From positions 62,001-126,000 of the forward strand of contig NZ_JADKRV010000010.1 of the NCBI RefSeq assembly GCF_015351025.1: DNA of 64,000 nucleotides, given 5' to 3'. The translations under genes were made by a program, and so were the position numbers. This DNA is from Curtobacterium sp. VKM Ac-1376 (lineage in GTDB: Bacteria; Actinomycetota; Actinomycetes; Actinomycetales; Microbacteriaceae). Shown piece by piece: positions 4,062 to 39,957 of the stretch; positions within the stretch are counted from its first letter, which is position 1; each line of letters begins with the position of its first letter. The notes beneath the pieces are model-generated. The model searched no databases and had not been told where the DNA came from. It saw only the letters and a list, made by a program, of their open reading frames with translations.

Positions 4062-5066
4062 TCAGTGGTGCCGGTGGTCCTGGATGGTGATGCGCGGCCC
4101 GAACGCCGGCTTCCGGAACCCCGAGCCGCCGATCAACCGCACGACCCGCTCCCGGTGCCCGCGCCACGGCTCCAGCAGCTCGAGCATCCCGTCGTCGTCA
4201 ACGGGAGCACCGGTCAGCGCCCACCCGACGAGCGCCGGCACGTGGAAGTCCCCCACGCTCGGTGCGTCCGGGTCGCCGTGGGAGCGCTGCGCGGTCTCGG
4301 CGGCGGTCCACCGGCCGACCCCGGGGATCGACTGCAGCTTCGCGGACACCTCGGCTCCCCCACGCCCGTGCGCAAGGGTCCGTTCGAGCGCCGGCGCCAG
4401 CTTCACGGCACGCATCACGGTGGCGGAGCGACCGGGCTCGATGCCGGCGCGGTGCCACTCCCAGCTCGGGATCCTCGCCCACGTCGCGGCGTCGGGCGGG
4501 ACCATCATCCCCGCGGGTGCGGGCCCGGGTGCCGGGGTCCCGTGCCGGCGGAGCAGGTACCGCCACGCGCCCCACGCCTGCCGCGAGGTCACCTTCTGCT
4601 CCATGATCGCGGGCACGAGCATCGCGACGACGGTGTTCGTGCGGAGCAGCCGGAGCCCGGGCTGCCGGTGCCGGGCGGCCGCCAGGAACTCGTGGCCGGA
4701 GACGTCGAACGCCGACCAGTCGTCGCCGCGGCCGAGCAGATCGGGTGCGTGCTCGACCGCCCACGACGCACCACTCCCCCACGCCGAGACCACGATCGCG
4801 TCGCCGGCCCGCCGGATCGCGACGGTGGCAGGACCCGTGGGTGTGCGCAACGCGAGCCACACGACGCCGTCGACCACCCGGTAGGCGGGGTCGCCGGAGC
4901 CGCGCTGCAGGGGCCGCAGGGTCGACGCGACGTCCACCGCGCCTCCAGGCCGGTACACCGTGTCGACGCGAGCCGCGTCCTCGGACGCACCCGCAGCAGC
5001 AGACGCGCCAGTGGGCGTCGGGGCGGAAGCGAGCGGGGGCACACCGGGATGGTAATGCGGAACCAC
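4062..5066 (-). CDS. DNA-3-methyladenine glycosylase family (AlkA-like)
   Basis: The 334-residue protein carries the helix-hairpin-helix GPD signature: LQSIPGVGRWTAAET followed about 20 residues later by VGDFHVP, whose Asp is the expected catalytic residue. Upstream, VPAIMEQKVTSRQA matches the core of AlkA/HhH-GPD glycosylases that remove alkylated bases from DNA. No Ada or methyltransferase domain is attached. The first 30 residues are low-complexity Ala/Ser/Thr, so the true start may be internal. The gene diverges from pfkA with about 60 bp between starts. Confidence 0.85.
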   Translation of the reverse strand: MVPHYHPGVPPLASAPTPTGASAAAGASEDAARVDTVYRPGGAVDVASTLRPLQRGSGDPAYRVVDGVVWLALRTPTGPATVAIRRAGDAIVVSAWGSGASWAVEHAPDLLGRGDDWSAFDVSGHEFLAAARHRQPGLRLLRTNTVVAMLVPAIMEQKVTSRQAWGAWRYLLRRHGTPAPGPAPAGMMVPPDAATWARIPSWEWHRAGIEPGRSATVMRAVKLAPALERTLAHGRGGAEVSAKLQSIPGVGRWTAAETAQRSHGDPDAPSVGDFHVPALVGWALTGAPVDDDGMLELLEPWRGHRERVVRLIGGSGFRKPAFGPRITIQDHRHH

Positions 5067-5127: not shown

Positions 5128-6156
5128 ATGCGCATCGGCATCCTCACCTCCGGAGGCGACTGCCCCGGCCTGAACGCGGTCATCCGCGCGATCGTCCTCA
5201 AGGGCATCGCCATCTACGGACACGACTTCGTCGGCTTCCGCGACGGGTGGCGTGGCGTCGTCGACGGCGACATCGTCCCGCTCGGCCGCAAGGACATCCA
5301 GGGGATCGCGAAGCAGGGCGGCACGATCCTCGGCACCAGCCGCACCAACCCGTTCGAGGGGCCGAACGGCGGCGCCGAGGCCATCGAGCGGATGCTCGAG
5401 AAGCACGGCATCGACGCCATCGTCGCGATCGGCGGCGAGGGCACCCTGGCCGCCGCGAAGCGCCTGACCGACGCCGGCCTGAAGATCGTGGGCGTGCCGA
5501 AGACGGTCGACAACGACCTCGGCGCGACGGACTACACGTTCGGGTTCGACACCGCAGTCGCGATCGCGACCGAGGCGATGGACCGCCTCCGCACCACCGG
5601 CGAGTCGCACTCGCGCTGCATGGTCGCCGAGGTGATGGGCAGGCACGTGGGCTGGATCGCCCTGCACTCGGGGATGGCAGCGGGCGCGCACGCGATCCTC
5701 ATCCCGGAGCAGAAGACGAGCATGGAGCAGATCGCGAAGTGGGTGCGCGCCGCCTACGACCGCGGTCGCGCGCCGCTCGTGGTGGTGGCCGAGGGCTTCG
5801 TGCCGGACCACGAGGACACCGCACACACCGAGCGCGGACTCGACGCCTTCGGGCGCCCGCGCCTGGGTGGCATCGGCGAGCGCCTCGCGCCGCTGATCGA
5901 GGAGATGACGGGCATCGAGACCCGTGCGACGACCCTCGGGCACATCCAGCGGGGTGGCACACCGACCGCGTACGACCGGGTGCTGTCGACGCGGCTCGGG
6001 CTGGCGGCCATCGACGCGGTGGTCGAGGAGCGCTGGGGTCGGATGGTCGCGCTGAAGGGCACGGACATCGTGCACGTCTCGTTCGACGAGGCGCTGGGCG
6101 CGCTGAAGACGGTGCCACAGGCGCGCTTCGACGAGGCCGCGATCATGTTCGGGTGA
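5128..6156 (+). CDS. pfkA: 6-phosphofructokinase, actinobacterial group III
   Basis: This cytoplasmic enzyme phosphorylates fructose 6-phosphate to the 1,6-bisphosphate in glycolysis. The 342-residue length and motifs LTSGGDCPGLNAVIR (residues 7-21), GGEGT (102-106), PKTVDND (124-130) and MGRHVGW define the family. The donor is informative: Gly105 is typical of ATP enzymes whereas Lys125 is typical of pyrophosphate enzymes. This mixed pair is known from actinobacterial ATP-dependent PFKs such as those of Streptomyces. A purine-rich CGGAG precedes the ATG. Confidence 0.95.
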   Translation: MRIGILTSGGDCPGLNAVIRAIVLKGIAIYGHDFVGFRDGWRGVVDGDIVPLGRKDIQGIAKQGGTILGTSRTNPFEGPNGGAEAIERMLEKHGIDAIVAIGGEGTLAAAKRLTDAGLKIVGVPKTVDNDLGATDYTFGFDTAVAIATEAMDRLRTTGESHSRCMVAEVMGRHVGWIALHSGMAAGAHAILIPEQKTSMEQIAKWVRAAYDRGRAPLVVVAEGFVPDHEDTAHTERGLDAFGRPRLGGIGERLAPLIEEMTGIETRATTLGHIQRGGTPTAYDRVLSTRLGLAAIDAVVEERWGRMVALKGTDIVHVSFDEALGALKTVPQARFDEAAIMFG

Positions 6157-29320: not shown

Positions 29321-30594
29321 GCGGGCCTGGTTCTTCTGCTGAACCTTCGTCGGCTGGGCCTGCTTCGTCTGCTGGACCTGATTCTCCTGCGGCACCGTCG
29401 TCGTCGGTGGCTTCGTCGGCCGTGCTCGCCACAGTCGGCATCGGGGTGCAGGGTGTCACGAAGCTGCTCGTGACCGTCGTCGTCGGGCGGGTGTTCGGCA
29501 CCGAGACCCTCGGACAGACCACCGCCCTGCTGTCGCTCTCGGTGTTCGTCGCCCTGCTCTGGCCGAACGCCGCGGGCAACACCGCGTCGCGGTTCCTGGC
29601 GATCGCGCTGCGGCGTCGGCACTCCGATGCCGCAGTGAACCGGCTGCTCGGGGTCTCGATGCTGGTGTCGAGCGTGGTGCTCGCGGCGGTCACCGTGCCG
29701 GTCGCGCTGGCCTGGGGCAACGGCCCCGGCATGGTGCTCGGCGGCGCTGCGGTCGTCGTCGGCTACGGCCTCTACTGCTACGCCCGCGGCGCGCAGCTCG
29801 GCTACGACCGGGCGCCGCGCGTCGCACTGTGGGACTCGGTGACGAGCGTGCTGGCGCTCGGGTTGCTCGTGGTGGCGTGCGTCGCGCGGCTCGAGCCGTT
29901 CGTGCTGCTTCCCCTGGCCACCGGGTACACGGTGTTCGCCATCGCGTGCTGGCCGCGGGGCAACGGCTTCGCACCTGCTTCTCGCGAACCCGCCGCCGGG
30001 GTGCTCGGATTCGCGGCGTGGAACGTGCTGGCCGTGGTGACCTCGAACGGGTTGCTGCAGTTGACGATGATCTCGGCGCAGGTGACGTCGTCGGCGCACG
30101 ACGCCGGTGTCTACGCCGCCGCGTTCACCCTGGCGACGCCGGCGTCGATGCTCGGGCAGGCGTTGGGGCAGGTGCTCGTGCCGGCGTTCGCGCACCGGAC
30201 CGATGGTGGCTCGTTGCGCTCGCGTGGGGCGCTGCTGCTCGTCGTCGGGTTCGCTGCTGCTTCCGCCGTCGTGCTCGGCCTGGTCGCACTGCTCGCCGGG
30301 TGGTTCCTGCCGATCGTCTACCCCTCCGAGGGTGCCGCTGCCGTCGCCGACCTGCGGTACCTGATGGTCGCGGTGTGGGTGTTCACCGTCGGGCTCGTGC
30401 CGGCGGCATTGCTGCTCGCCGCTGGACGCTCACGGCAGGTCGCCCTGGCTTCGGTCGCGGGGTTCGTCGTCGGCGCTGGGCTCATGGCTGCGCTTGGGCC
30501 GACCGCAGGTGTTGCGGGTGGGACGACGGGGTTCCTGGTGGGGAGTGCGGTGAACCTGGTTGCGGTGGTCGGGCTCGGAGTGCGGCGGGGCTGA
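29317..30594 (+). CDS. MOP-superfamily flippase-like membrane protein (Wzx/polysaccharide exporter type)
   Basis: The 425-residue product begins with a 30-residue Ser/Ala/Pro-rich head containing repeats of SSAGP, then about 12-14 hydrophobic spans. VVVGRVFGTETLGQTTALLSLSVFVALLWPNAAGN resembles the first helices of O-antigen flippases and related lipid-linked-sugar exporters. No glycosyltransferase or polymerase is nearby, so its cargo is unclear. GTG overlaps the MATE stop (GTGA). Both are members of the same MOP superfamily. Confidence 0.72.
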   Translation: MSGPGSSAEPSSAGPASSAGPDSPAAPSSSVASSAVLATVGIGVQGVTKLLVTVVVGRVFGTETLGQTTALLSLSVFVALLWPNAAGNTASRFLAIALRRRHSDAAVNRLLGVSMLVSSVVLAAVTVPVALAWGNGPGMVLGGAAVVVGYGLYCYARGAQLGYDRAPRVALWDSVTSVLALGLLVVACVARLEPFVLLPLATGYTVFAIACWPRGNGFAPASREPAAGVLGFAAWNVLAVVTSNGLLQLTMISAQVTSSAHDAGVYAAAFTLATPASMLGQALGQVLVPAFAHRTDGGSLRSRGALLLVVGFAAASAVVLGLVALLAGWFLPIVYPSEGAAAVADLRYLMVAVWVFTVGLVPAALLLAAGRSRQVALASVAGFVVGAGLMAALGPTAGVAGGTTGFLVGSAVNLVAVVGLGVRRG

Positions 30595-30704: not shown

Positions 30705-31655
30705 CTAAGCGGATTGAGACGATGCGGTTCGAAGCTGTGACATGGAACCGTACTGGCTGAGGAGGCTGACGAACTCGGCCTCGTCGTGGAACGAGACAAT
30801 GCCGCGGCCGTGGTCCTTGGCGGCTTCGATGACGAATCGCACGGCACTCTCGACGACGCGAAGGTCGGTGGCTCCGGTGGCCGATCCGGCGACGGCAGTC
30901 TCGGTCGTGATCGCGACACCGACCACGGGGGCGTCGGTGGCGGTCGCTGGCTGCATGATCGAGTTCACGTGGAACACCCCGTTGCCGTAGGGGGTGATGT
31001 CCTGGGTTGTGATCGGCAGGACAGCCGGCGCCACACCGGTGGTCCGGGCGACCACGTCGAGCAGTGTTTCGGACACGCGGAGGATCCAACCGTCTTTGAC
31101 CGTGGGAGTGATCGCGAAGCCGCGGTGATTGAGGACGCGGTTTCCCTTGGTGGTGTCGACGGAGAGGATTGCGTCCATCTCGGGCCGGACCTCGAGGTCG
31201 TTCGCGACGGCCATGTCGACGGCCGAGTCCATGAACGGCACCGGGTCGTGGGGCTGCGTCGGAGCGTCCGGGTCGACGTGCGTGGCGATGATGACGTCCC
31301 CGTCCAGCACGTCACCACGCCGGGCCATGTCGAGCAGCTTCGCGGCCGCGGCGATCACGGTGAGGGCGCCGTCGCCATCCGAGACGAATCCGATCTGTTC
31401 GGGTCGGGCACCGAGTCCGCCCAAGCGTCCGAGCAGCCCGAGTGTCGGGGCGTCGCCACCGGCGGTCTTGCCGCGCCGGCCCGGGATCGTGATGCGGACG
31501 AAGTCGGTGGCGCCCTTCTCACCGGTCACGGTCTCGACCTCGGCGGTCGGGCCGCCGTCAGCGGTGTACCCAGCGAGGAATGCGGCGACCGCGGCTCCGG
31601 ACGTGTTCGGGTCGTCGAGCAGGTCGTAGGCGGCGAGGGTGTGGGTCCAGGACAT
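30705..31655 (-). CDS. DUF1177 domain protein
   Basis: The 316-residue protein is DUF1177 throughout. Conserved stretches include IIATHVDPDAPTQPHDPVPFMDS, LSVDTTKGNRVLNHRGFAITPTVKDGWIL and VLPITTQDITPYGNG. The His/Asp-rich segment around HVDPDAPTQPHD could bind a metal, but no activity is established. It is soluble, with no signal. It lies downstream of the OPT transporter and aroM on the same strand with a 144 bp gap and has its own ribosome site (AAGGAG). The gene set suggests a role in handling the transported compound. Confidence 0.85.
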   Translation of the reverse strand: MSWTHTLAAYDLLDDPNTSGAAVAAFLAGYTADGGPTAEVETVTGEKGATDFVRITIPGRRGKTAGGDAPTLGLLGRLGGLGARPEQIGFVSDGDGALTVIAAAAKLLDMARRGDVLDGDVIIATHVDPDAPTQPHDPVPFMDSAVDMAVANDLEVRPEMDAILSVDTTKGNRVLNHRGFAITPTVKDGWILRVSETLLDVVARTTGVAPAVLPITTQDITPYGNGVFHVNSIMQPATATDAPVVGVAITTETAVAGSATGATDLRVVESAVRFVIEAAKDHGRGIVSFHDEAEFVSLLSQYGSMSQLRTASSQSA

Positions 31656-31799
31656 GGTGCTCCTTGCGTGGTTCGTGGGGATGATGGTCGTTCGTTCAGC
31701 TGTTGGCGCCGCGGGCGGCCGTACCGGCGGCCAAGACCGCGTCGATGACCGGACGTCGATGTCGGTCGTGAGCCGGTCGGACCAGGCTGACCGTCCCGA

Positions 31800-32519
31800 T
31801 CACCGGGCGATCGCCGTGGCGGTCCGCAATCCGTCGAGGACCTCCGCCGCCAGGCGGGCGGCGACCGAACGCGCCAGGACGACCGGGAGGCCCGTGGCAG
31901 CTGCGACCACCCGCCGCATGTGCTCGGTGTAGCCGATGCAGTCGAGCGCGATGAGCTCCGCCCCGCCTTCCAGCAGGCAGCGCGCCGCATCTGCCAGGGT
32001 CGCGTCCGTCCCGGTGTACGGAGAGCTCGGCGCGGTCAGGACATGCTGCCCGGCAAGGCGCCGGGCGAACTTCGCGACGGTGAAGTCCTGCTGCGCCGGG
32101 AGTGGACAGACCACGCCGACCCGCGCACTGCCGGCACCACCGACCGCGGTCGCGAGCGCTGCCGTCCCGAGGGCGATGAGCGCATCCGGAACGAACAACG
32201 GTTTCGTGTGCGGGAGCGCATCGAACGGACCGGTGCACGCGAGGAACACGGCGTCGACCTCGGCCTCGAGCGCTGCGAGGACGCCGGGCAGCCGCTCCTG
32301 GACCTGTCGTTCGCCGATCTCGATGGATCCACCGTCCGCCAGTCTCGTCGTGAGTACGTGGTCGTCGTCGGCTGGCCCCATCGTGGCGAGTGCTTCGGCG
32401 CTCATGGCGTCGAGGACACCGCGTTCGACGAGTTCCACGCCGGGGAGCCAGCGCGACAGCTCGGGGGTGAGGTCGATGCGGGGGGCCTGGCCGATGGTGA
32501 CGACGCCGAGGCGGGTCAC
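31800..32519 (-). CDS. aroM: AroM family protein
   Basis: The 239-residue protein matches the AroM family: LGVVTIGQAPRIDLTPEL at the N-terminus, then VFLACTGPF, VGVVCPLPAQQ and LIALDCIGYTEHMR. The two Cys-centred motifs resemble those of Asp/Glu/hydantoin racemase-fold enzymes. Escherichia coli AroM is regulated with aromatic genes but has no proven reaction. GTG 32519 overlaps the OPT transporter stop by four bases, so the two are coupled. In this setting AroM may act on the imported substrate rather than in shikimate metabolism. Confidence 0.85.
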   Translation of the reverse strand: MTRLGVVTIGQAPRIDLTPELSRWLPGVELVERGVLDAMSAEALATMGPADDDHVLTTRLADGGSIEIGERQVQERLPGVLAALEAEVDAVFLACTGPFDALPHTKPLFVPDALIALGTAALATAVGGAGSARVGVVCPLPAQQDFTVAKFARRLAGQHVLTAPSSPYTGTDATLADAARCLLEGGAELIALDCIGYTEHMRRVVAAATGLPVVLARSVAARLAAEVLDGLRTATAIAR

Positions 32520-34150
32520 AGGATCTTCCCGAGGGAGAAGACGGAGTCGCCGGCGATGAGCCCGGCGCCCGTCAGGGAAACCTCACGCTCGCCCTTCTCA
32601 CCACGGGCCTTCTTCCAGATGCCACGGAGCACCAGGGCGCCGAGGACCATCCAGCCAGCGTTGGCGGTGCTGATGAGGAGGCCGGTGGCCAGCAGGACGC
32701 CCATCTGGCGCTTCGGACCGCCGAGGATCTGCACGACGGCGCCGGGGATCGCCCAGAGGAGCAGGTTGCCGATCGCGTGGCCGTCACCGAGACCGGCGCG
32801 GATGGTGTCGGCGTAGACGATGGCGGTCGGCGGGATGGCTCCGTCGGCGAAGAGCCCTCGCCAGAGCAACGCCACCATGCCGATCGAGACGGCGAATCCG
32901 ATCATGCTCGCGATCATTTGCTGGCGGCGGCCGTCCATCTCGTAGGCGGTGTACGGACGACGGTCGCGACGGAGGATCCACCCGGCCTTGAAGTCGTAGC
33001 CCATGTCGGCGAACGCGGGGCCGGTGGCGGCGCAGTAGCCGACGACCAGCGCGAGCGGGACGGCGGGGATCTGCAGGAGGAGCCCGACGACCAAGAAGAT
33101 GAGCGTCACGGCGAACGCCGGGAACCACCCTGCGTGCATGGCAGCCAGGCCGACGATGAGCTCGTGGACCAGCGCGGCGACCCCGGCGAACAGCACCCAT
33201 GCGATCACCGCAGCGACGGGCATGTCTGCCCAGACGCCGCCCAGCGTGGCGAGGACCAGCGCACCGATGACGTACGCGACGTAGCCCGAACCGAGCACGC
33301 GTCGGAGCTGCCGGGGCTGGACCGTCGGAGCCAGCGAGGGGTCGGCGGCGACGACATCGCGCGCTGCCTCGGCCTCTGCTCGCTCGCGCTTGCTGACCCG
33401 TCCAGCAAGGATCATGCCGACCTGCACGAGGGCGACGACGCCCGCCCCGATCATCACGCCGTGCGGGATGTACAGCTCGGCGAGGTTCACGTCCAGCAGC
33501 ACCGGGGCGTACTGGTTCACGAGCAGGCCGACGCCGAACATCATCAGCGCCCAGACGTTCCCGATCATCGCGATGCCGGCGGCGGACATCGGCAGTCCGA
33601 GGAAGGACGCCCCGATACCGACCGCGGTACCCCCGACGAGCCAGAGCGCCTGCTTGCCGCCGCGGTCGCCCGCCTTGATCGTCTCGGCGGCTGCGACCCC
33701 GGGAGGCCACGCGGCGTCGGCCGGCAAGAACTTCGAGCCGAACGCCTTGTACAGGACCAACGCGTCGATGACGAGTCCGAGCGACGCGCCCAGCAGCATC
33801 GGCCAGACCAGGTCGGCGCGGCCGAACGCGAACGGCACGGCGATGGGCGTGATGAGCGAGTTCGCCGCGGCGAAGGTGGATCCGGAGATCGCGCTCTGGG
33901 CGAGGTTCTGCCGGTTCACGTCGCGCATCTTCCGGAGCCCGAAGAACCCGATACGTCCGATGAGCATCGCGATCACGGCACCGATGACGCTGGTGTTCGG
34001 CGAGACGCCGAGGGTCGTGATCATGTGGATGCCGATCAACGCACCGAGGATGCTCACCAGGATCGTGATGACGAGCATCAGCGGTTGCAGGGCGCTCGGG
34101 TGGCGCTCCGACCGCGCTGCGGTCGGAGGTGTGACGGTCTGCTGGGCCAT
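32516..34150 (-). CDS. OPT family oligopeptide/metallophore transporter
   Basis: The 544-residue protein has about 14-16 hydrophobic segments and OPT signatures: ISGSTFAAANSLITPIAVPFAFG, AWPPGVAAAETIKAGDRGGKQALWL, and GYDFKAGWILRRDRRPYTAYEMDGRRQQMIASMIGF-type wording (spread over residues 400-435). OPT proteins import peptides or peptide-like chelates with protons. It is transcribed away from an IclR regulator, with aromatic-family gene aroM and DUF1177 downstream. The peptidase E gene on the other strand supports a peptide substrate. Confidence 0.88.
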   Translation of the reverse strand: MAQQTVTPPTAARSERHPSALQPLMLVITILVSILGALIGIHMITTLGVSPNTSVIGAVIAMLIGRIGFFGLRKMRDVNRQNLAQSAISGSTFAAANSLITPIAVPFAFGRADLVWPMLLGASLGLVIDALVLYKAFGSKFLPADAAWPPGVAAAETIKAGDRGGKQALWLVGGTAVGIGASFLGLPMSAAGIAMIGNVWALMMFGVGLLVNQYAPVLLDVNLAELYIPHGVMIGAGVVALVQVGMILAGRVSKRERAEAEAARDVVAADPSLAPTVQPRQLRRVLGSGYVAYVIGALVLATLGGVWADMPVAAVIAWVLFAGVAALVHELIVGLAAMHAGWFPAFAVTLIFLVVGLLLQIPAVPLALVVGYCAATGPAFADMGYDFKAGWILRRDRRPYTAYEMDGRRQQMIASMIGFAVSIGMVALLWRGLFADGAIPPTAIVYADTIRAGLGDGHAIGNLLLWAIPGAVVQILGGPKRQMGVLLATGLLISTANAGWMVLGALVLRGIWKKARGEKGEREVSLTGAGLIAGDSVFSLGKIL

Positions 34151-34192
34151 GGCAGGTACTGTGCCGTCTCGATCGAGGAGAGCGGAAGCAAA

Positions 34193-34243
34193 TCCCACTA
34201 TCTGGGAGTTACAGTCACATTTCGGGCGAATCCTCCCTAGGCT
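34193..34243. promoter_or_regulatory. Divergent OPT/iclR control region with dyad and -10 box
   Basis: TCCCA (34193-34197) and TGGGA (34203-34207) form a short inverted repeat spaced by five bases, a size that suits an IclR-type dimer site. TAGGCT (34238-34243) ends six bases before the iclR GTG, indicating a leaderless promoter. The whole gap between the divergent genes is 99 bp. Confidence 0.4.
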
Positions 34244-34249
34244 GCCGGT

Positions 34250-35086
34250 GTGCCGACTCCCTCTCCGACACCGCTGCAGACCGTCGATCGAGCGCTCGAG
34301 GTCTTGCTGTCCTTCGACGAGTACCGCAAGGAGTGGGGCGTGCTGGAGCTCGCCGAGGAGTTCGGACTGACCCGCTCGACAGCACAGCGCCTGCTCGCCG
34401 CTCTCGCCGCCCGCGGGTTCCTGCACGCCGATCCGCACACCCGGCGCTACCGCCTCGGCCCGGCCATCTGGAAGACCGCGGCGATGTGGGAACGCGGTGG
34501 TGGACTCGCAGCCCTGAGCGAGCCGTTCCTCGCGGACCTCGCCCGCGAGACCGACCGGACGGCGCTGTTCTGCACGCCCGACGGCGCCTACGTTCGCTGC
34601 ATCACCGCAGTGGACGGTGTCGACGGCCCCCGGCGGGCGCACCCGTACATCGGCGACGTCTTCCCCGCCCACGCCGGGGCCACCTCGCGCGCGTACTTCG
34701 CGTTCCTGGTGCCGACCGAACGCTCAGCCCTGCTGCACGGACGCCCCTCGGCAAGGTACTCGGAGCTGACCGAAGTCGACGAGGACGCACTCCGTCAGCT
34801 CTTCGACGGCACGGTGCTGGGCGGGTACGCCGCCTCCGAGGGCGAGTTCGACGCCACATCACGCGCGATCGCCGTGCCGGTCTTCGCCGGTCGTCGGCCC
34901 GTCGGCTCGCTGTCACTGCTCGAGGACAAGACGACCGAGCACGACGACCTCTTGATCGACGCGCTCCCCACCCTCCGCACCACGGCCGACGCGCTGAGCG
35001 ACCTCCTCTCGAACCGGCCGCCCGCCGCTCCCCGACGGGACTGGCGGCGTGGCCGGGGCACCACATCGACGAACGGACCCCGATGA
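34250..35086 (+). CDS. IclR-family transcriptional regulator
   Basis: The 278-residue protein has an N-terminal winged helix (TVDRALEVLLSF, then LAEEFGLTRSTAQRLLAALAARGFL, residues 10-60) and the IclR effector domain with YVRCITAVDG, PAHAGATSRAYFAF and a C-terminal SRAIAVPVFAGRRPVGSLSL. The last 25 residues are Arg/Pro-rich and may be disordered. It overlaps the peptidase E gene by four bases (ATGA) and diverges from the OPT transporter, so it probably controls both arms of the cluster. Confidence 0.9.
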   Translation: MPTPSPTPLQTVDRALEVLLSFDEYRKEWGVLELAEEFGLTRSTAQRLLAALAARGFLHADPHTRRYRLGPAIWKTAAMWERGGGLAALSEPFLADLARETDRTALFCTPDGAYVRCITAVDGVDGPRRAHPYIGDVFPAHAGATSRAYFAFLVPTERSALLHGRPSARYSELTEVDEDALRQLFDGTVLGGYAASEGEFDATSRAIAVPVFAGRRPVGSLSLLEDKTTEHDDLLIDALPTLRTTADALSDLLSNRPPAAPRRDWRRGRGTTSTNGPR

Positions 35087-35844
35087 CCCAGGCCCTCCTC
35101 TTCTCCAACTCGACCAACCACGGCGGCGCGTACCTCGGGCACGCCCTGGACGTCCTCGCCGACCACTACGACGGCGTCGCAGAGGTCCTGTTCGCGCCGT
35201 GGGCCCTCGCCAATCACGACCAGTACGTGGAGCGGGTCGCACCGGCGTTCCGATCGATCGGCATCAGCGTTCGCGGACTCCACACCATCGATGACCCCGC
35301 CGCGGCCGTGAGGGATGCAGATGCCCTCTACGTCGGCGGCGGAAACACCTTTCGACTGACCGCCGCGCTGCACCGTCACGGCCTCATCGACGCCATCCGC
35401 ACAGCAGCGGTCAACGGCGGACTCCGCTACGGCGGAGCAAGTGCTGGCACAGTCGTCGCGGCTCCGACAATGCGCACCACGAACGACATGCCGATCGCTG
35501 AACCCACGTCATTCACGACGCTCGGCCTTGTGCCTTTCCAGATCAACCCGCACTACCTCGACGCTGACCCGACCTCGACCCACGCTGGTGAGACCCGCGA
35601 GCAACGACTCGCCGAGTTCCTCGAACAGAACGACGCCGCCGTCCTCGGCCTGCGAGAAGGCACCTGGCTCCAACTCAAACCAGAGAGCGACGGGCAGAAC
35701 TCCGCAACCATCGGCGGGCACCCGACCTTGCACAGCGCAGCAGGCCCAGCCGTGCTCCTGCAACGCGGACACCCCATACGCGAAGTCGCCGGCGACGTCT
35801 CCGAACTACTCCACCTCATCCCGCGATACGACACGGCCATCTAG
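35083..35844 (+). CDS. pepE: Peptidase E (alpha-aspartyl dipeptidase, S51)
   Basis: A 253-residue cytoplasmic serine peptidase expected to cleave N-terminal Asp from dipeptides. Ser120 in YGGASAGT, His157 in NPHY and Glu192 in LREGT fall at the same positions as the Ser120-His157-Glu192 triad of Salmonella peptidase E. YVGGGNTFRL is the conserved glycine loop before the nucleophile. It is coupled to the IclR gene and sits in a cluster with a peptide-type transporter. The final third uses slightly more A/T codons than neighbours. Confidence 0.92.
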   Translation: MTQALLFSNSTNHGGAYLGHALDVLADHYDGVAEVLFAPWALANHDQYVERVAPAFRSIGISVRGLHTIDDPAAAVRDADALYVGGGNTFRLTAALHRHGLIDAIRTAAVNGGLRYGGASAGTVVAAPTMRTTNDMPIAEPTSFTTLGLVPFQINPHYLDADPTSTHAGETREQRLAEFLEQNDAAVLGLREGTWLQLKPESDGQNSATIGGHPTLHSAAGPAVLLQRGHPIREVAGDVSELLHLIPRYDTAI

Positions 35845-35998
35845 CCCACGGCCACACCATCACGCGAGGCGGACAGCCCGACGTGAGGTTTGAGCCCGGC
35901 AGACCCCGCCACGTGCGACGCCGATAGCGGTCTCTTATGTCAGCACGATTGGCGAGGACGGCAGCCCTGCAGACAGGGACGTCGTCGCACCTGCCCTT

Positions 35999-38452
35999 TC
36001 AGTCAATTCCGAGATCATCTCCCAGATCCTCAGTTACACCATCGAGCGACGCCTCACCTGTTGTGAGCTGACGCACACGGCTTGCGAGGCGGCGCTGCAC
36101 CGCCTGGATCTGCGGGTCACCGTTTTCGCGCTCATATTGCGTGAGCAACTGGATTGCATCATCCACCGCACTGAAATCGTTGTACCGCTCAGCCAGAGAC
36201 AGCCCAATCTCCCCCAGGGTCTTATAACTGTACAGATCCGACCCGTACCTCGCAATACACGAATTGATCGTATTCAAGGCGTCTAGCAGGATTGCATGCC
36301 TATCCGAGTCTTCGACAAGCGTTATAACCTCCGACTTACGAAGCGCCACCTGTGCCTTATACCTTTGCAGGACCGCATCGGTACCATTCACGCGCTCGGC
36401 TACCGCAATCTCGTTGCTCGCTTCGGGCAGCATGTCTCGAGACAGGAACAGCTTTGCGAGTCGCCGTCGGGGTGTCCTATGGGCAGGGATGACATCGATA
36501 AGACGCCTGTACGCCGCGATCTGATCTCCAAAACTCGTCAAACGAGCTATGCCCAGGCCTTCGGTAGCAAGCGCGACCGCCGTTTCCATCTCGATGTCTA
36601 CACTTGGGTTCAAGCCGTTGATCAGGTCAAAAAATAGATTACGAATCTCGTCTTGATCAGCAAACTTAACACGCGCGATCACGGTAGCGATGACGTCATG
36701 TCTTGTCTCCCACCCGAATATGCCTCTTCCGCCATCGATGACATGCTCAAAGACTACGCCTTCAAGTTGCGCCAGGACCGCGTCGAGTGATGTTGCGTCT
36801 AGGCCTAAAAGGCGCAGAATAAGCTGCCTATGCACGTGGCCGCCAAGTGCTTGCACCGCGGCCACGTATCGGTATACCTCGCGTGCATCTTGACTGAGCG
36901 TGAAATACTCTTGCAAGAGAAGATCGTCGAGGTTATCGTTGGCGAAGATATTCTTTAGGCAAACGAACATCTCTGAACTGCACTTATTCTTCAAGCGCGA
37001 GAGGCGCGCGCCTCGACTGAGGTGAAGGAAGCTCTGCTCAACAAGTTGCTTGATCTCCGGACGGCGATCGAGCAACGCGACAAGTTCATCGAGGTCGCTG
37101 CGCTCGAGGACAGAAAGGCGAACATTGCTACCACGGGAGAAAAATCCCGGCGATTTTCGCGATACTTTCCATCGGGCGGCGTCCACAGTGACGACCACTC
37201 GCAAGCTCGGGCGGTCGAGCCCTGCGAGTGCATCAACGAGCTTGTTGACCTCCCTCAAATGGCGATAGCAGTCGTCGATCAGAAGCACGCCATCTTGACC
37301 TGCTTCACGGAGCCGCTTTTCGGCGTCCAACCATGAAGCTACATCGAGTGGAACGTCGGGACGGTGCTCCCAAGTGGGTACGCCACGTTGCGACAACTCC
37401 AGCATGAACGCGCGGGCGAGAGAAGTTTTACCAACTCCCCGCGCGCCTTCAACGACATGGAAATACCCCCGCGCACCCTTGAATGCGTCTCGCATTCGGT
37501 GCTGCGCCACCCGCGATATTGTCAGGCCCTGTTTGATATCGGCATAAGATGCCGGCGATCCGTTGAATAGCTTGGTAACGTTCGTCTCCAGCGCTGTTGC
37601 ATGAGTGACATCAATAGTGGTCACTACTAGGGAAGCTGATAGCAGTGAACTACCGCTGGACGTGGAGTACGCTCTCGTCTCTCGAGTCTTTCCGGCACCG
37701 ATGAGAGCCAAGAGAAAAGTGTCCAGGTCCGCGTGGACTACTTCCAAGCCGATGCGGGTATACAACTCAGCACGGTCAGCGTCGTATTGGTGCACCAGTA
37801 AGAAAACGCGCGTGTTGACGCCCTCGGCGCGAAGAGCGACAACTTGCTTAGCGAGCTCTTTCAGGTGCCGGTCCGCAAGTGACTGACCAATGATGACAGT
37901 GTCCCCTGTGAACATGTCCCCTTGCAGGGAATTGAAGAGTGTCTGTCGATATCGCTCAAAATCGTCGTAATCACTCTCGGTAATCAGCATTCGGCTTCTA
38001 TGCCCGTCTGCCGAATCCTGCGTGACGCAGCCGTGAATCTTGTAAAGGGAGGTAACTTCCTGCGTCCTTGGTTTCCCTATATCAAAGTTAGAGCGATAAA
38101 CGTCGATGGACCGTCCGAATTGTAGGTACGCCTGTTCCACCAAGGTGTCGAAATTGGTGGTGTAGATGGACAACCAGTCGAAGTTTGGGAGTGCAAGCAG
38201 ACCCGAAGTTGGGTGCAATCCTTTGAGCGCCGAGCGAACCTCGGCCACCAGCGCGGGCCGACCCTTGCGATTCTCTACGAGTTGAGCCACCTCTGCCAGC
38301 TCGGCTTCATCTGGATCGAGATGGATGAGCCGTCCAAGCCGCCGGGCAAGGACGGCACCACTCGGTGCTCCGGAAGGAATGGACGCACCTGCTCCGAAGA
38401 GCAGGGCGGTGCGAGTGGGCGTCAGGGTCTGCGCCAGCTCATGAACATCCAT
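35999..38452 (-). CDS. SIR2 - STAND NTPase protein, putative anti-phage sensor (Avs5-like)
   Basis: The 817-residue protein has three parts. Residues 10-250 are a SIR2 NAD-binding domain: GAGAS (20-24), TTNFD (98-102), KIHG with the catalytic-type His140, and IIGQS (187-191). Residues 320-560 hold a P-loop NTPase: Walker A GARGVGKTS (336-344), Walker B VLLIDD (389-394) and a winged-helix-like segment. The rest is helical and may form TPR-like repeats. The order SIR2, STAND, repeats is that of Avs5-type defence proteins, in which the repeats sense a phage protein and SIR2 depletes NAD+. Atypical codon use supports horizontal origin. No partner gene is adjacent. Confidence 0.8.
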   Translation of the reverse strand: MDVHELAQTLTPTRTALLFGAGASIPSGAPSGAVLARRLGRLIHLDPDEAELAEVAQLVENRKGRPALVAEVRSALKGLHPTSGLLALPNFDWLSIYTTNFDTLVEQAYLQFGRSIDVYRSNFDIGKPRTQEVTSLYKIHGCVTQDSADGHRSRMLITESDYDDFERYRQTLFNSLQGDMFTGDTVIIGQSLADRHLKELAKQVVALRAEGVNTRVFLLVHQYDADRAELYTRIGLEVVHADLDTFLLALIGAGKTRETRAYSTSSGSSLLSASLVVTTIDVTHATALETNVTKLFNGSPASYADIKQGLTISRVAQHRMRDAFKGARGYFHVVEGARGVGKTSLARAFMLELSQRGVPTWEHRPDVPLDVASWLDAEKRLREAGQDGVLLIDDCYRHLREVNKLVDALAGLDRPSLRVVVTVDAARWKVSRKSPGFFSRGSNVRLSVLERSDLDELVALLDRRPEIKQLVEQSFLHLSRGARLSRLKNKCSSEMFVCLKNIFANDNLDDLLLQEYFTLSQDAREVYRYVAAVQALGGHVHRQLILRLLGLDATSLDAVLAQLEGVVFEHVIDGGRGIFGWETRHDVIATVIARVKFADQDEIRNLFFDLINGLNPSVDIEMETAVALATEGLGIARLTSFGDQIAAYRRLIDVIPAHRTPRRRLAKLFLSRDMLPEASNEIAVAERVNGTDAVLQRYKAQVALRKSEVITLVEDSDRHAILLDALNTINSCIARYGSDLYSYKTLGEIGLSLAERYNDFSAVDDAIQLLTQYERENGDPQIQAVQRRLASRVRQLTTGEASLDGVTEDLGDDLGID

Positions 38453-38814
38453 AGTTACCTCAATGATCAGGGCTCGGGACCCCGCGATGGCGGCTACCGA
38501 CGTTGGCAGCCGGGGAAACTTTACCCGCCCCGACTACGATTTCGAGACTCGCTCATACTCGGCCGTCGTTTGGCGAGTAGGACGCCGAAGTCAAGAGCGC
38601 TGCAGTAGCACTGCATCCCTCGCCCCTCTATGCGCGACGGAATCGCCCCGCAACGTCCCAGGAGCTTGGTCGGCTCTGCCGCGTTGGGGTATGCCCCAAC
38701 GCCACAGCGGTTCCCCCGCGCAAAACGTGTTGTTCTGAGGTTGAGCTAGGACGTTCAACCACAGGAGTGCGCGCAGGTCTAGACCCCACGCCGCACCCTC
38801 ACCGAGCCGATGTG
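38453..38814. other. Gene-free 362 bp between SIR2-STAND and lacI-type genes
   Basis: I see no credible coding sequence here; short open frames lack ribosome sites and coding bias. It should hold the promoter of the SIR2-STAND gene (a GAGG-type ribosome site lies just upstream of ATG 38452) and the terminator of the lacI-type gene, plus one edge of the A+T-richer island. Confidence 0.6.
38682..38703 (-). terminator. Hairpin downstream of the lacI-type gene
   Basis: GCGTTGGGG (38682-38690) pairs perfectly with CCCCAACGC (38695-38703) around a TATG loop. It lies about 110 bp past the lacI-type stop codon in the direction of transcription. Confidence 0.5.
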
Positions 38815-39957
38815 TCAGTGGGTGCGAGTGTCCGGCGGCGGCCCCGTCGTGTCCCCCACCCGCAACTCCGAGGTGAACGATGCGGGCTGCGGCTCCGCCC
38901 CCTCGAGCATGGCCAGGGCGGCGCGGGCCGCGGCCTGGCCCTTCTGCACGAAGGGCTGCACCAGGGTGGTCAGGTGCCGGATCGGGGTGCGGTGGAGCAG
39001 GCTGTCGTCCACCGTGATCCCGTCGAACCCGACGACGCTGACGTCCTCGGGGACACGGAGTCCGGCGTCGAGTGCGGCCGAGATCACACCGACGGCGATC
39101 AGGTCACTCTGGGCGATGACGGCGGTGGGGCGGGGGCCATCAGGGGCGAAGAGGTCGGTGCCGGCAAGACGCCCCTCTTCCACCGAGCTGCCGGCGGTCT
39201 CGATCGCGACGGCGTCCGGGTAGACCCCCCGCACACCACGCAGTCGTTCGAGTGTGGTGAAGGCGATGCCCTCCGCCTGCCGGGCTGCGTCGATGGGGCC
39301 ACGGCGACGTGCGGCATCGAGGGGCAGGGTCACCACGGTCACGTCCTGGTGGCCGAGCTCCTGCAGGTACGCAGCGGCACGGCGTGAAGCGTCCCGGTTG
39401 TCGAGCTGGACGGGGACGGCGCCCTCGATCTCGTCCGCCTCGATCGCGACGACGGGGATCTGCCGACGGCGCAACACGGCGACGGCGGGGTCGATCCGGA
39501 CGTTGCACCCGACGAGCACGACGGCGTCCATCGGGGCATCGACCAACGGGCCGGCGCTCTGCTCGTCGTCGAGCGGACTCCGCACCAGAAGTAGGGACAC
39601 ACCCGCGGCACCCGCGACCTCGGCGATGCCGTCGAGCGTCAGGACGTTGACCGGATCGCGAAAGGCGTCGCTCAGGCGCTCGTCCATCACGACACCGATG
39701 ACGCCGGAGCGACCGCGGCGCAGGGAACGAGCGCGGGGATCGGGGCCGCCGTAACCGAGGTCGGCGGCGGCGGCGAGCACGCGGGCCTTGGCGTCCTCGG
39801 ACACCGGGCCGAGACCACTGAACGCGAGCGATGCCGTCGACGGCGCGACCCCGGCAGCACGGGCGACCGCGGCCAGCGTCGGGCGCGACGGACGTAGCGC
39901 GCCGTCGCGGGAGGGCTTCGTCCGCGACGCGCCGGGTGCTGTTGCCGCCTCGTCCAT
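38815..39957 (-). CDS. LacI-family transcriptional regulator
   Basis: The 380-residue protein has a LacI helix-turn-helix at residues 27-48 (TLAAVARAAGVAPSTASLAFSG) and hinge wording AAAADLGYGGPDPRARSLRRG, then a periplasmic-binding-like effector domain (IGVVMDERLS, PVVAIEADE, DVSVVGFDG). A 25-residue extension precedes the HTH. It diverges from an MFS transporter across 103 bp that contains a perfect palindromic operator, so it probably represses both genes. A TACGCT -10-like box lies eight bases before its ATG. Confidence 0.9.
   Translation of the reverse strand: MDEAATAPGASRTKPSRDGALRPSRPTLAAVARAAGVAPSTASLAFSGLGPVSEDAKARVLAAAADLGYGGPDPRARSLRRGRSGVIGVVMDERLSDAFRDPVNVLTLDGIAEVAGAAGVSLLLVRSPLDDEQSAGPLVDAPMDAVVLVGCNVRIDPAVAVLRRRQIPVVAIEADEIEGAVPVQLDNRDASRRAAAYLQELGHQDVTVVTLPLDAARRRGPIDAARQAEGIAFTTLERLRGVRGVYPDAVAIETAGSSVEEGRLAGTDLFAPDGPRPTAVIAQSDLIAVGVISAALDAGLRVPEDVSVVGFDGITVDDSLLHRTPIRHLTTLVQPFVQKGQAAARAALAMLEGAEPQPASFTSELRVGDTTGPPPDTRTH

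Follow-up and report, generated by a model that had tools for sequence, protein, structure and literature searches.

Relation of the SIR2-STAND protein to Avs5

Avs5 proteins, represented by PaAvs5 and by the structures of EfAvs5 (9jap) and AVAST5 (9nc9), consist of a SIR2 domain, a STAND ATPase and helical repeats, in that order. According to PMC12931631, PaAvs5 contains SIR2_2 (PF13289) and nSTAND3 domains, the mutation N110A in its TTNxD motif abolishes defence, NAD+ drops on infection, and conservation of the C-terminus across Avs5 is poor. Here, we describe a gene with the same domain order in a 64,000-nucleotide stretch of Curtobacterium sp. VKM Ac-1376 (contig NZ_JADKRV010000010.1, positions 62,001 to 126,000; the whole stretch is called the window, and coordinates refer to it). 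Our reading, to which we assign a probability of about three in four, is that it encodes a single-protein, Avs5-like antiviral analogue of nucleotide-binding leucine-rich repeat (NLR) proteins, carried as a cassette of ~2.7 kb between a dif-like site (DIF8) and a palindrome (PAL).

The gene is an intact open reading frame (ORF; 35999–38452, minus strand) that starts with ATG and encodes 817 amino acids. It lies inside 35845–38760, where the first-pass annotation had placed a protein whose SIR2 domain is followed by a STAND ATPase and by helices at the C-terminus, and all three parts were recovered. The SIR2 NADase-type domain spans residues 1–255 (37688–38452), with a Pfam match to SIR2_2 at residues 95–237 (1.1e-21) and the motifs GAGAS, TTNFD (with N100) and KIHG (with H140). 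An N-terminal SIR2_2 domain with GAGxS and TTNxD is also the combination described for Avs5 in PMC12931631. The STAND nucleotide-binding domain follows at residues 296–435 (37148–37567). Its residues 296–434 matched nSTAND_NTPase5 (PF25199, here nSTAND5; 5.2e-8, 33.3 bits), and the motifs GARGVGKTS and LLIDD are present, with K342 in Walker A and D393 in Walker B. In the alignment and the model, residues 436–600 (36653–37147) form a helical region that appears to include a winged-helix-like part and carries the motifs MFVCLKNIF and VHRQL. Residues 601–800 (36053–36652), helical in the AlphaFold model, would be the sensor, by analogy with Avs5.

The AlphaFold model, built from a family alignment of 14 proteins (A3, described below), had a predicted local distance difference test score (pLDDT) of 81.3 and a predicted template modelling score (pTM) of 0.75. 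The first-pass annotation had proposed a structural comparison with Avs1–5 and DSR1/2, and Avs5 and DSR2 were among the matches. In a Foldseek search of the PDB, EfAvs5 ranked first (E 1.8e-21, 884 alignment columns), followed by human SAMD9, the AVAST5 filament (9nc9) and then DSR2 and ThsA. VIA-align matched 715 residues to EfAvs5 with Z 17.2 and a root-mean-square deviation of 27.7, a large value that we read as a different orientation of the domains. From these fold matches of a predicted model, the working analogy with Avs5 appears strong. In a viral fold library, the top matches were AAA-type ATPases and unnamed proteins.

The SIR2 domain by itself resembles those of ThsA, KomC and DSR2 in the PDB, with VIA-align Z scores of ~20. 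These proteins and DSR1 share the SIR2 NADase domain with the window protein and, to our knowledge, are without a STAND ATPase of its type. The SIR2 fold is common to deacetylases, and several of the PDB matches are labelled as such by their depositors. Still, it is very improbable that the gene encodes a cellular sirtuin or a signalling ATPase without a role in defence, as the domain matches the defence NADases named above and the gene is rare, patchily distributed and low in G+C. The protein is probably a phage-triggered NADase, a prediction made by analogy.

Whether the protein belongs to Avs5 proper is a narrower question. The domain order, a similar length, the GAGxS and TTNxD motifs and the full-length fold match to EfAvs5 are shared, and to this extent the annotation as Avs5-type holds. 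An assignment to Avs5 proper is not supported. The STAND domain of this protein family is nearest to nSTAND5, whereas Avs5 is reported with nSTAND3 (PF20720), for which the window protein scored 17.4 bits, below both its PF25199 score and the nSTAND3 cut-off of 27.2. Among the 14 aligned members, PF25199 was matched by all at E ≤ 0.01 and nSTAND3 by 12, with a weaker best score. The PADLOC Avs5 model (PDLC02170) did not match the window protein and matched 7 of the 14 members weakly (best 7.4e-9), in the SIR2 stretch where positions were shown (~115–222 of 771 in the profile). A further difference is the HG dipeptide, found in 14/14 members, whereas about half of the Avs5 homologues carry NG, as given in PMC12931631. 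Because nSTAND5 outranks nSTAND3, the PADLOC model matches weakly or not at all and HG is invariant, we regard the SIR2-nSTAND5 protein as a putative sister branch of Avs5 rather than as Avs5. This agrees with the divergent branch suspected in the annotation.

The family could instead be a divergent Avs5 clade that is already among the 335 published Avs5 sequences, in which case the protein would be nothing new. This is possible but somewhat doubtful. The best PDB fold is indeed EfAvs5, and, according to PMC12931631, the tested clade representatives share just 18–21% identity and the set was collected by PSI-BLAST, which could have included this family. The profile results given above, from both PADLOC and the STAND domains, speak for a separate branch. 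Three observations weigh against our main reading of the protein: the nSTAND5 score lies 0.7 bits short of the curated cut-off of 34, the rigid-body TM-score to Avs5 is low (0.28), and a PDB search with STAND profiles that lacked the main SIR2 part failed to retrieve EfAvs5. A PADLOC Avs5 search at E ≤ 1e-30 found no match in 274 genomes of the Halomonas class and none in 14 controls, and is hence uninformative. Overall, the protein would be a new branch of a known kind, and the borders of its cassette are the surprising part.

Distribution of the SIR2-nSTAND5 family

The SIR2-nSTAND5 family is rare and patchily distributed. Among 59 genomes (the own genome and relatives), only the own genome contained a full-length match, and one other (G028) had a SIR2-only match. 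Outside the own genome, matches in 398 genomes sampled at family level and 396 at phylum level (own included) spanned SIR2 or another single stretch only. Searches with the window protein alone found close relatives neither in genome contigs nor in phage records. A copy on a plasmid of Pseudomonas sp. KBS0707 (L003) covers 99% of the protein at 33% identity and is interrupted by a frameshift and an in-frame stop. This broken full-length member (L003, 1263–3687) has an IS3 transposase on one side and a tyrosine recombinase on the other. Among the matches listed, a second Pseudomonas plasmid shows the same identity as this copy.

A profile made from two rows retrieved 16 loci in genome contigs and 9 in viral contigs. 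We left out L026 (run of Ns), L034 and L038 (frameshifts) and L039 and L040 (partial) from the former, and took in only L041 and L042 from the latter, so that the end-to-end alignment A3 comprises 14 proteins, the window protein among them. Nearest to the window protein are members from Brevibacterium and Arthrobacter (58–60% identical), while those from Sphingomonas, Mesorhizobium (two), Qipengyuania, Fimbriimonadaceae, Nitrospira, Ectothiorhodospiraceae, Hyphomicrobiales, Halomonas and viral contigs (two) are 32–36% identical. When 374 class-level genomes were searched with a profile, a single full-length member (L099) and an N-terminal match came to light, which brings the family to the window protein and 14 further full-length members. 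A further 288 genomes, from the class to which the Mesorhizobium genome belongs, gave no family match at E ≤ 1e-30. Invariant across the 14 rows of A3 are G20, G22, N100, D102, K138, H140, G141, G336, G339, G341, K342 and D393, and PF25199 scores of siblings reach 53.9 (L003), 52.8 (L099) and 44.5 bits (L030).

Scored with the family profile, complete ORFs reached >900 bits (19 records, with redundant copies counted) and truncated or broken members 888 to 410. Proteins of other architectures fell below these. The longer SIR2-nSTAND5-TPR proteins share SIR2_2 and a strong PF25199 match with the family (1.8e-35 in L104/L043 and 6.7e-24 in L091), but are ~230–250 residues longer, have TPR matches and scored 221 (L043/L104) and 169 bits (L091). 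SIR2-only proteins scored lower. L104 (4923–8114) and L043 (4644–7835) come from one virus-classed contig, which encodes a 1063-residue longer sister of this architecture. L091 is a Psychrobacter plasmid protein of 1047 residues. We considered it as a possible Avs5 and rejected it, as PADLOC gives no Avs5 call.

Divergence of the C-terminal region

For the presumed sensor region, we compared identities among 15 proteins, 4 actinobacterial and 11 others, a small sample. Over residues 1–600, mean identity was 0.55 within the actinobacterial group, 0.48 within the others and 0.38 between them (ratio 0.73, bootstrap 0.70–0.77). Over residues 601–795, the corresponding values were 0.48, 0.51 and 0.27 (ratio 0.55, 0.49–0.62). 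In two alternative splits, the ratio of between-group identity to identity within the others was 0.99 and 1.03 (core) or 0.90 and 1.12 (C-terminus). The FastTree branch that leads to the actinobacterial group is 1.09 long in the C-terminus and 0.60 in the core. From these identity ratios and branches, it follows that the C-terminus is conserved inside lineages and strongly diverged between them. This conservation within lineages differs from what is reported for Avs5. The split would fit lineage-specific recognition, although some 40-residue windows of the core (near 181–241 and 421) have ratios of 0.55–0.60, as low as that of the C-terminus. It would also agree with the new trigger that the first-pass annotation considered possible.

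Borders of the putative cassette

The most informative feature of the locus, absent from the first-pass annotation, is a pair of border sites. G+C is 0.52–0.59 in windows within the SIR2-STAND gene and ~0.70 on either side, and G+C at third codon positions is 0.61, versus 0.80–0.97 in eight neighbouring genes, which upholds the earlier description of a low-G+C insert. On the 3' side of the gene lies DIF8 (35920–35943, plus strand; GCCGATA-N8-TTATGTCAG, without mismatches). Its arms, GCCGATA and TTATGTCA, are those of the chromosomal dif-type site of the genus. We presume this site to be GATAATGCATATTATGTC, of which each of 6 genomes has exactly one copy and which resembles the dif of F. alni as printed in PMC3025954, again with the arms of DIF8. 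In DIF8, eight bases instead of seven separate GATA from TTATGTC, one extra base that sets it apart from dif with its 6-bp central region. The pattern GATAN{6,9}TTATGTC had 22 matches in the 6 genomes and its reverse had none. With up to 3 mismatches, DIF8 arose 0.05 times per 14 kb of shuffled sequence, and 31 reversed loci gave a single match.

On the 5' side of the gene, the lacI-side edge of the low-G+C segment is marked by PAL (38678–38705), an imperfect 28-bp palindrome at 3/28 positions off the consensus, which we drew up by eye as GTGGCGTTGGGGTATACCCCAACGCCAC. A 20-mer from this edge, contained in PAL, occurred with at most 1 mismatch in 6/66 genomes (7 matches, with one palindrome counted on both strands) and not at all when reversed. 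A resolvase adjoins PAL in G029 (Pfam Resolvase, 9.2e-37), and in G001 and G013 ORFs that look resolvase-like by sequence do so.

The borders coincide with the change in composition and, in the pairs compared, with break-points of homology. Between the window and G011, homology includes the pepE cluster, at 96% over 4.1 kb, and stops at 35943, the last base of DIF8. Beyond it lie the SIR2-STAND gene in the window and an AriA-like gene with a second ORF in G011. Between G001 and G013, homology on the resolvase side extends up to L130 5705, inside the palindrome (5701–5728), and on the other side up to L130 3141, and the cargo in between does not align. The border on that other side is the dif-like motif, at L130 3117–3140 and L133 7640–7663. 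On this side, homology between G001 and G029 stops at L130 3126, within the motif, and that between G029 and G013 stops 14 bp before it. G035 and G020 also carry the pepE cluster, but their fetched stretches of 16 kb contain no DIF8 motif, and alignment stops near the 3' end of pepE. Outside the dif-like site in L130, L131, L133, L158 and L164 stands an ORF that we take to be DUF1016-like, in several with a hairpin between the two.

Homologous flank exchange is commonly invoked for such variable sites, and the gene may have been gained by recombination between shared flanks. PAL would then be an operator or promoter element of the imported defence genes, and the dif-like motif no more than a passive boundary. 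The position of PAL 5' of the cargo genes in 5/6 loci with both borders fits this explanation, with the start codon in G001 uncertain. We nevertheless consider it unlikely, as the homology of G001 with G013 is lost within PAL and at DIF8, DIF8 has dif arms and marks the break-point with G011, and PAL is adjoined by a resolvase or resolvase-like ORF in three genomes. No sigma-70-type promoters were detected, and terminators occurred at chance frequency. A tRNA-linked integration was rejected, as the 64-kb window has no tRNA, and direct repeats around the gene amount to nothing beyond weak two-copy matches.

Cargo of the two-border loci

DIF8 and PAL form pairs at 6 loci, in the window and in five other genomes of the genus, with differing cargo. 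This is SIR2-nSTAND5 in the window, RelA/SpoT and NA37 in G843, a Ppl-like gene (1.1e-22) in G029, a CBASS cyclase (5.1e-112) and S_4TM in G013, a PDC-S59/S66-like ATPase, a caspase (PF00656) and ThsB_TIR in G011, and, in G001, an 859-residue protein that had no match when scanned against Pfam. G+C between the borders is 0.556–0.605 and in the flanks 0.648–0.709. A PADLOC match lies on the TTATGTCA side of 8 of the 12 sites with a spacing of 8; several of these matches are to candidate 'PDC' models only, the weakest at 6e-9, and they lie up to ~1.2 kb from the site. This share describes the selected genomes and does not extend to the genus. The other four sites adjoin a pectate lyase, the pepE cluster, a 733-residue protein without a match and one unscanned region (G011 C1:102964). 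At G001 C1:2827680, an ORF closer to the site than the pectate lyase was left out of the scan. Together, the borders and their cargo suggest a cassette system for defence genes.

Several observations weigh against a general cassette system. The border sites vary: in the window, G843, G029, G013, G011 and G001, respectively, DIF8 has 0, 1, 2, 1, 0 and 2 mismatches to its consensus and PAL 3, 5, 1, 5, 7 and 7 (of 28). The final 74 bp of the alignment between the window and G011, the motif included, are 78% identical. No recombinase gene was seen beside the window copy. One locus with PAL, L132 (G089), has no DIF8 in 11 kb. At the family loci L025, L026, L027 and L099, neither site was found convincingly. 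Across 17 family loci, no match to either was convincing, with hits at 2–3 mismatches in L027, L030, L031, L035, L042 and L099, of which only the one at L027 7387 is close to the end of the gene. Of 20 lacI-site loci, only L069 has both PAL and DIF8, and L079 has one DIF match with 3 mismatches. Non-defence cargo exists, namely the pectate lyase and the metabolic cluster. Finally, the two-border genomes are a non-random set: one is that of the window, four were picked for PAL and one for pepE.

The cassette in L162 (11489–16934) combines an ATPase-like gene with one that has a caspase domain and with a ThsB-type TIR gene, and may be an undescribed TIR-caspase defence set. In L159 (7576–9777), a 733-residue protein of lower G+C, without PADLOC or Pfam match, ends at the dif-like site and is a candidate unknown defence gene. 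The Micrococcaceae member L026, from a metagenome-assembled genome, has a 26-bp palindrome of its own upstream (1821–1846; arms of at least 11 bp, 4-bp centre). Its sequence is unlike PAL, and it could serve either as an operator or as a site analogous to PAL. A second palindrome common to the resolvase-like loci L158 and L163 was not found; a half-site in L158 was seen by eye only.

The lacI-side site and its neighbours

The SIR2-STAND gene was described as an insert between a metabolic cluster and a lacI-type gene, and this holds. On one side is pepE, named from its sequence, and on the other a lacI-type regulator (38815–39957, minus strand) with domains confirmed by Pfam. The idea that adjacent pepE and lacI would represent the empty site was not supported: pepE is accessory, present in 4/66 genomes of the genus (own included), and in the three besides the own genome its distance from lacI is ~37, 48 and 140 kb. 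The stable flank of this variable site is lacI, found in 66/66. A flippase-like gene, also named from its sequence, ends at 30594 in the window and was found within the stretch fetched next to lacI in 13/20 relatives, 0.6 to 9.8 kb from lacI. It was not reached in the fetched stretches of L070, L075, L076, L078, L082, L083 and L085.

Our cargo scan of this site covered 10 lower-G+C ORFs from 5 of 20 loci. Each scanned locus had at least one defence-type PADLOC match, so that such matches stand beside lacI in at least 5/20 relatives, and L067 and L069 each also had one ORF without a match. The matches are SIR2 and HerA (L071), Tmn (L067), PDC-M28C (L072, 1e-9), PycC and PycTM of Pycsar with RT_UG33 (L070) and PDC-S33 with a RelA_SpoT domain (L069). 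The lacI-side site is, judged by its predicted gene content, a defence hotspot. Because of these other defence-type genes beside lacI, the low G+C and the absence of full-length relatives in the other genomes of the genus searched, we agree with the first-pass annotation that the SIR2-STAND gene was gained horizontally.

In L070, the 3' end of lacI recurs (4395–4640; residues 297–378, 96% identical) beyond the Pycsar and RT_UG33 insert, which suggests a duplication at insertion. The other neighbour of the cassette is the accessory cluster DUF1177-AroM-transporter-IclR-pepE (30705–35844 in the window, L163 7849–13666), identified by Pfam, with the transporter named from its sequence. In G011 it is enclosed by two DIF8 sites, whereas the window has one DIF8 and one PAL. 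The cluster may itself be a module.

Proposed mechanism and comparison with known cassette systems

In the mechanism that we propose, the C-terminal helical region and the STAND ATPase would keep the protein inactive until the former binds a phage product. The protein would then oligomerise, and its SIR2 domain would hydrolyse NAD+, which would stop the infection. Site-specific recombination would move the cassette, through XerC/D at the dif-like site and, at the palindrome, through a small serine recombinase. For the genus as a whole, we tentatively propose, at slightly below even odds, that integron-like defence cassettes, each with one gene or a few, end in a dif-like site whose spacer is longer by one base and enter at a PAL served by a small serine recombinase, and that the SIR2-nSTAND5 gene is parked without a recombinase at the lacI-side hotspot.

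How single-gene immune systems without their own recombinase travel is poorly explained, and the DIF8/PAL pair offers a testable answer in one genus. Reading the interval between DIF8 and PAL also provides a way to find defence genes that are as yet undescribed. With the protein comes an Avs5-like branch that is compact and widely scattered, and its lineage-conserved C-terminus makes a search for conserved triggers practical.

We found no publications on dif-like defence modules in actinobacteria in a search that most subscription papers and all preprints fell outside. A word search of PMC10482375 found none of the terms Curtobacterium, SIR2, Avs, hotspot and dif as whole words. The pdif modules of Acinetobacter plasmids, as described in PMC13125923, are likewise gene modules bordered by dif-like Xer sites. 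The Curtobacterium cassettes differ from them in that the spacer is one base longer, each has one dif-like site and one palindrome, and they are found on the actinobacterial chromosome and smaller contigs, with mostly defence-type cargo.

The cassettes also resemble those of integrons, in which a gene is followed by a recombination-type site and the entry-side site stands beside a recombinase. Unlike in integrons, the site at the 3' side resembles dif, and it is a small serine recombinase that accompanies the other site.

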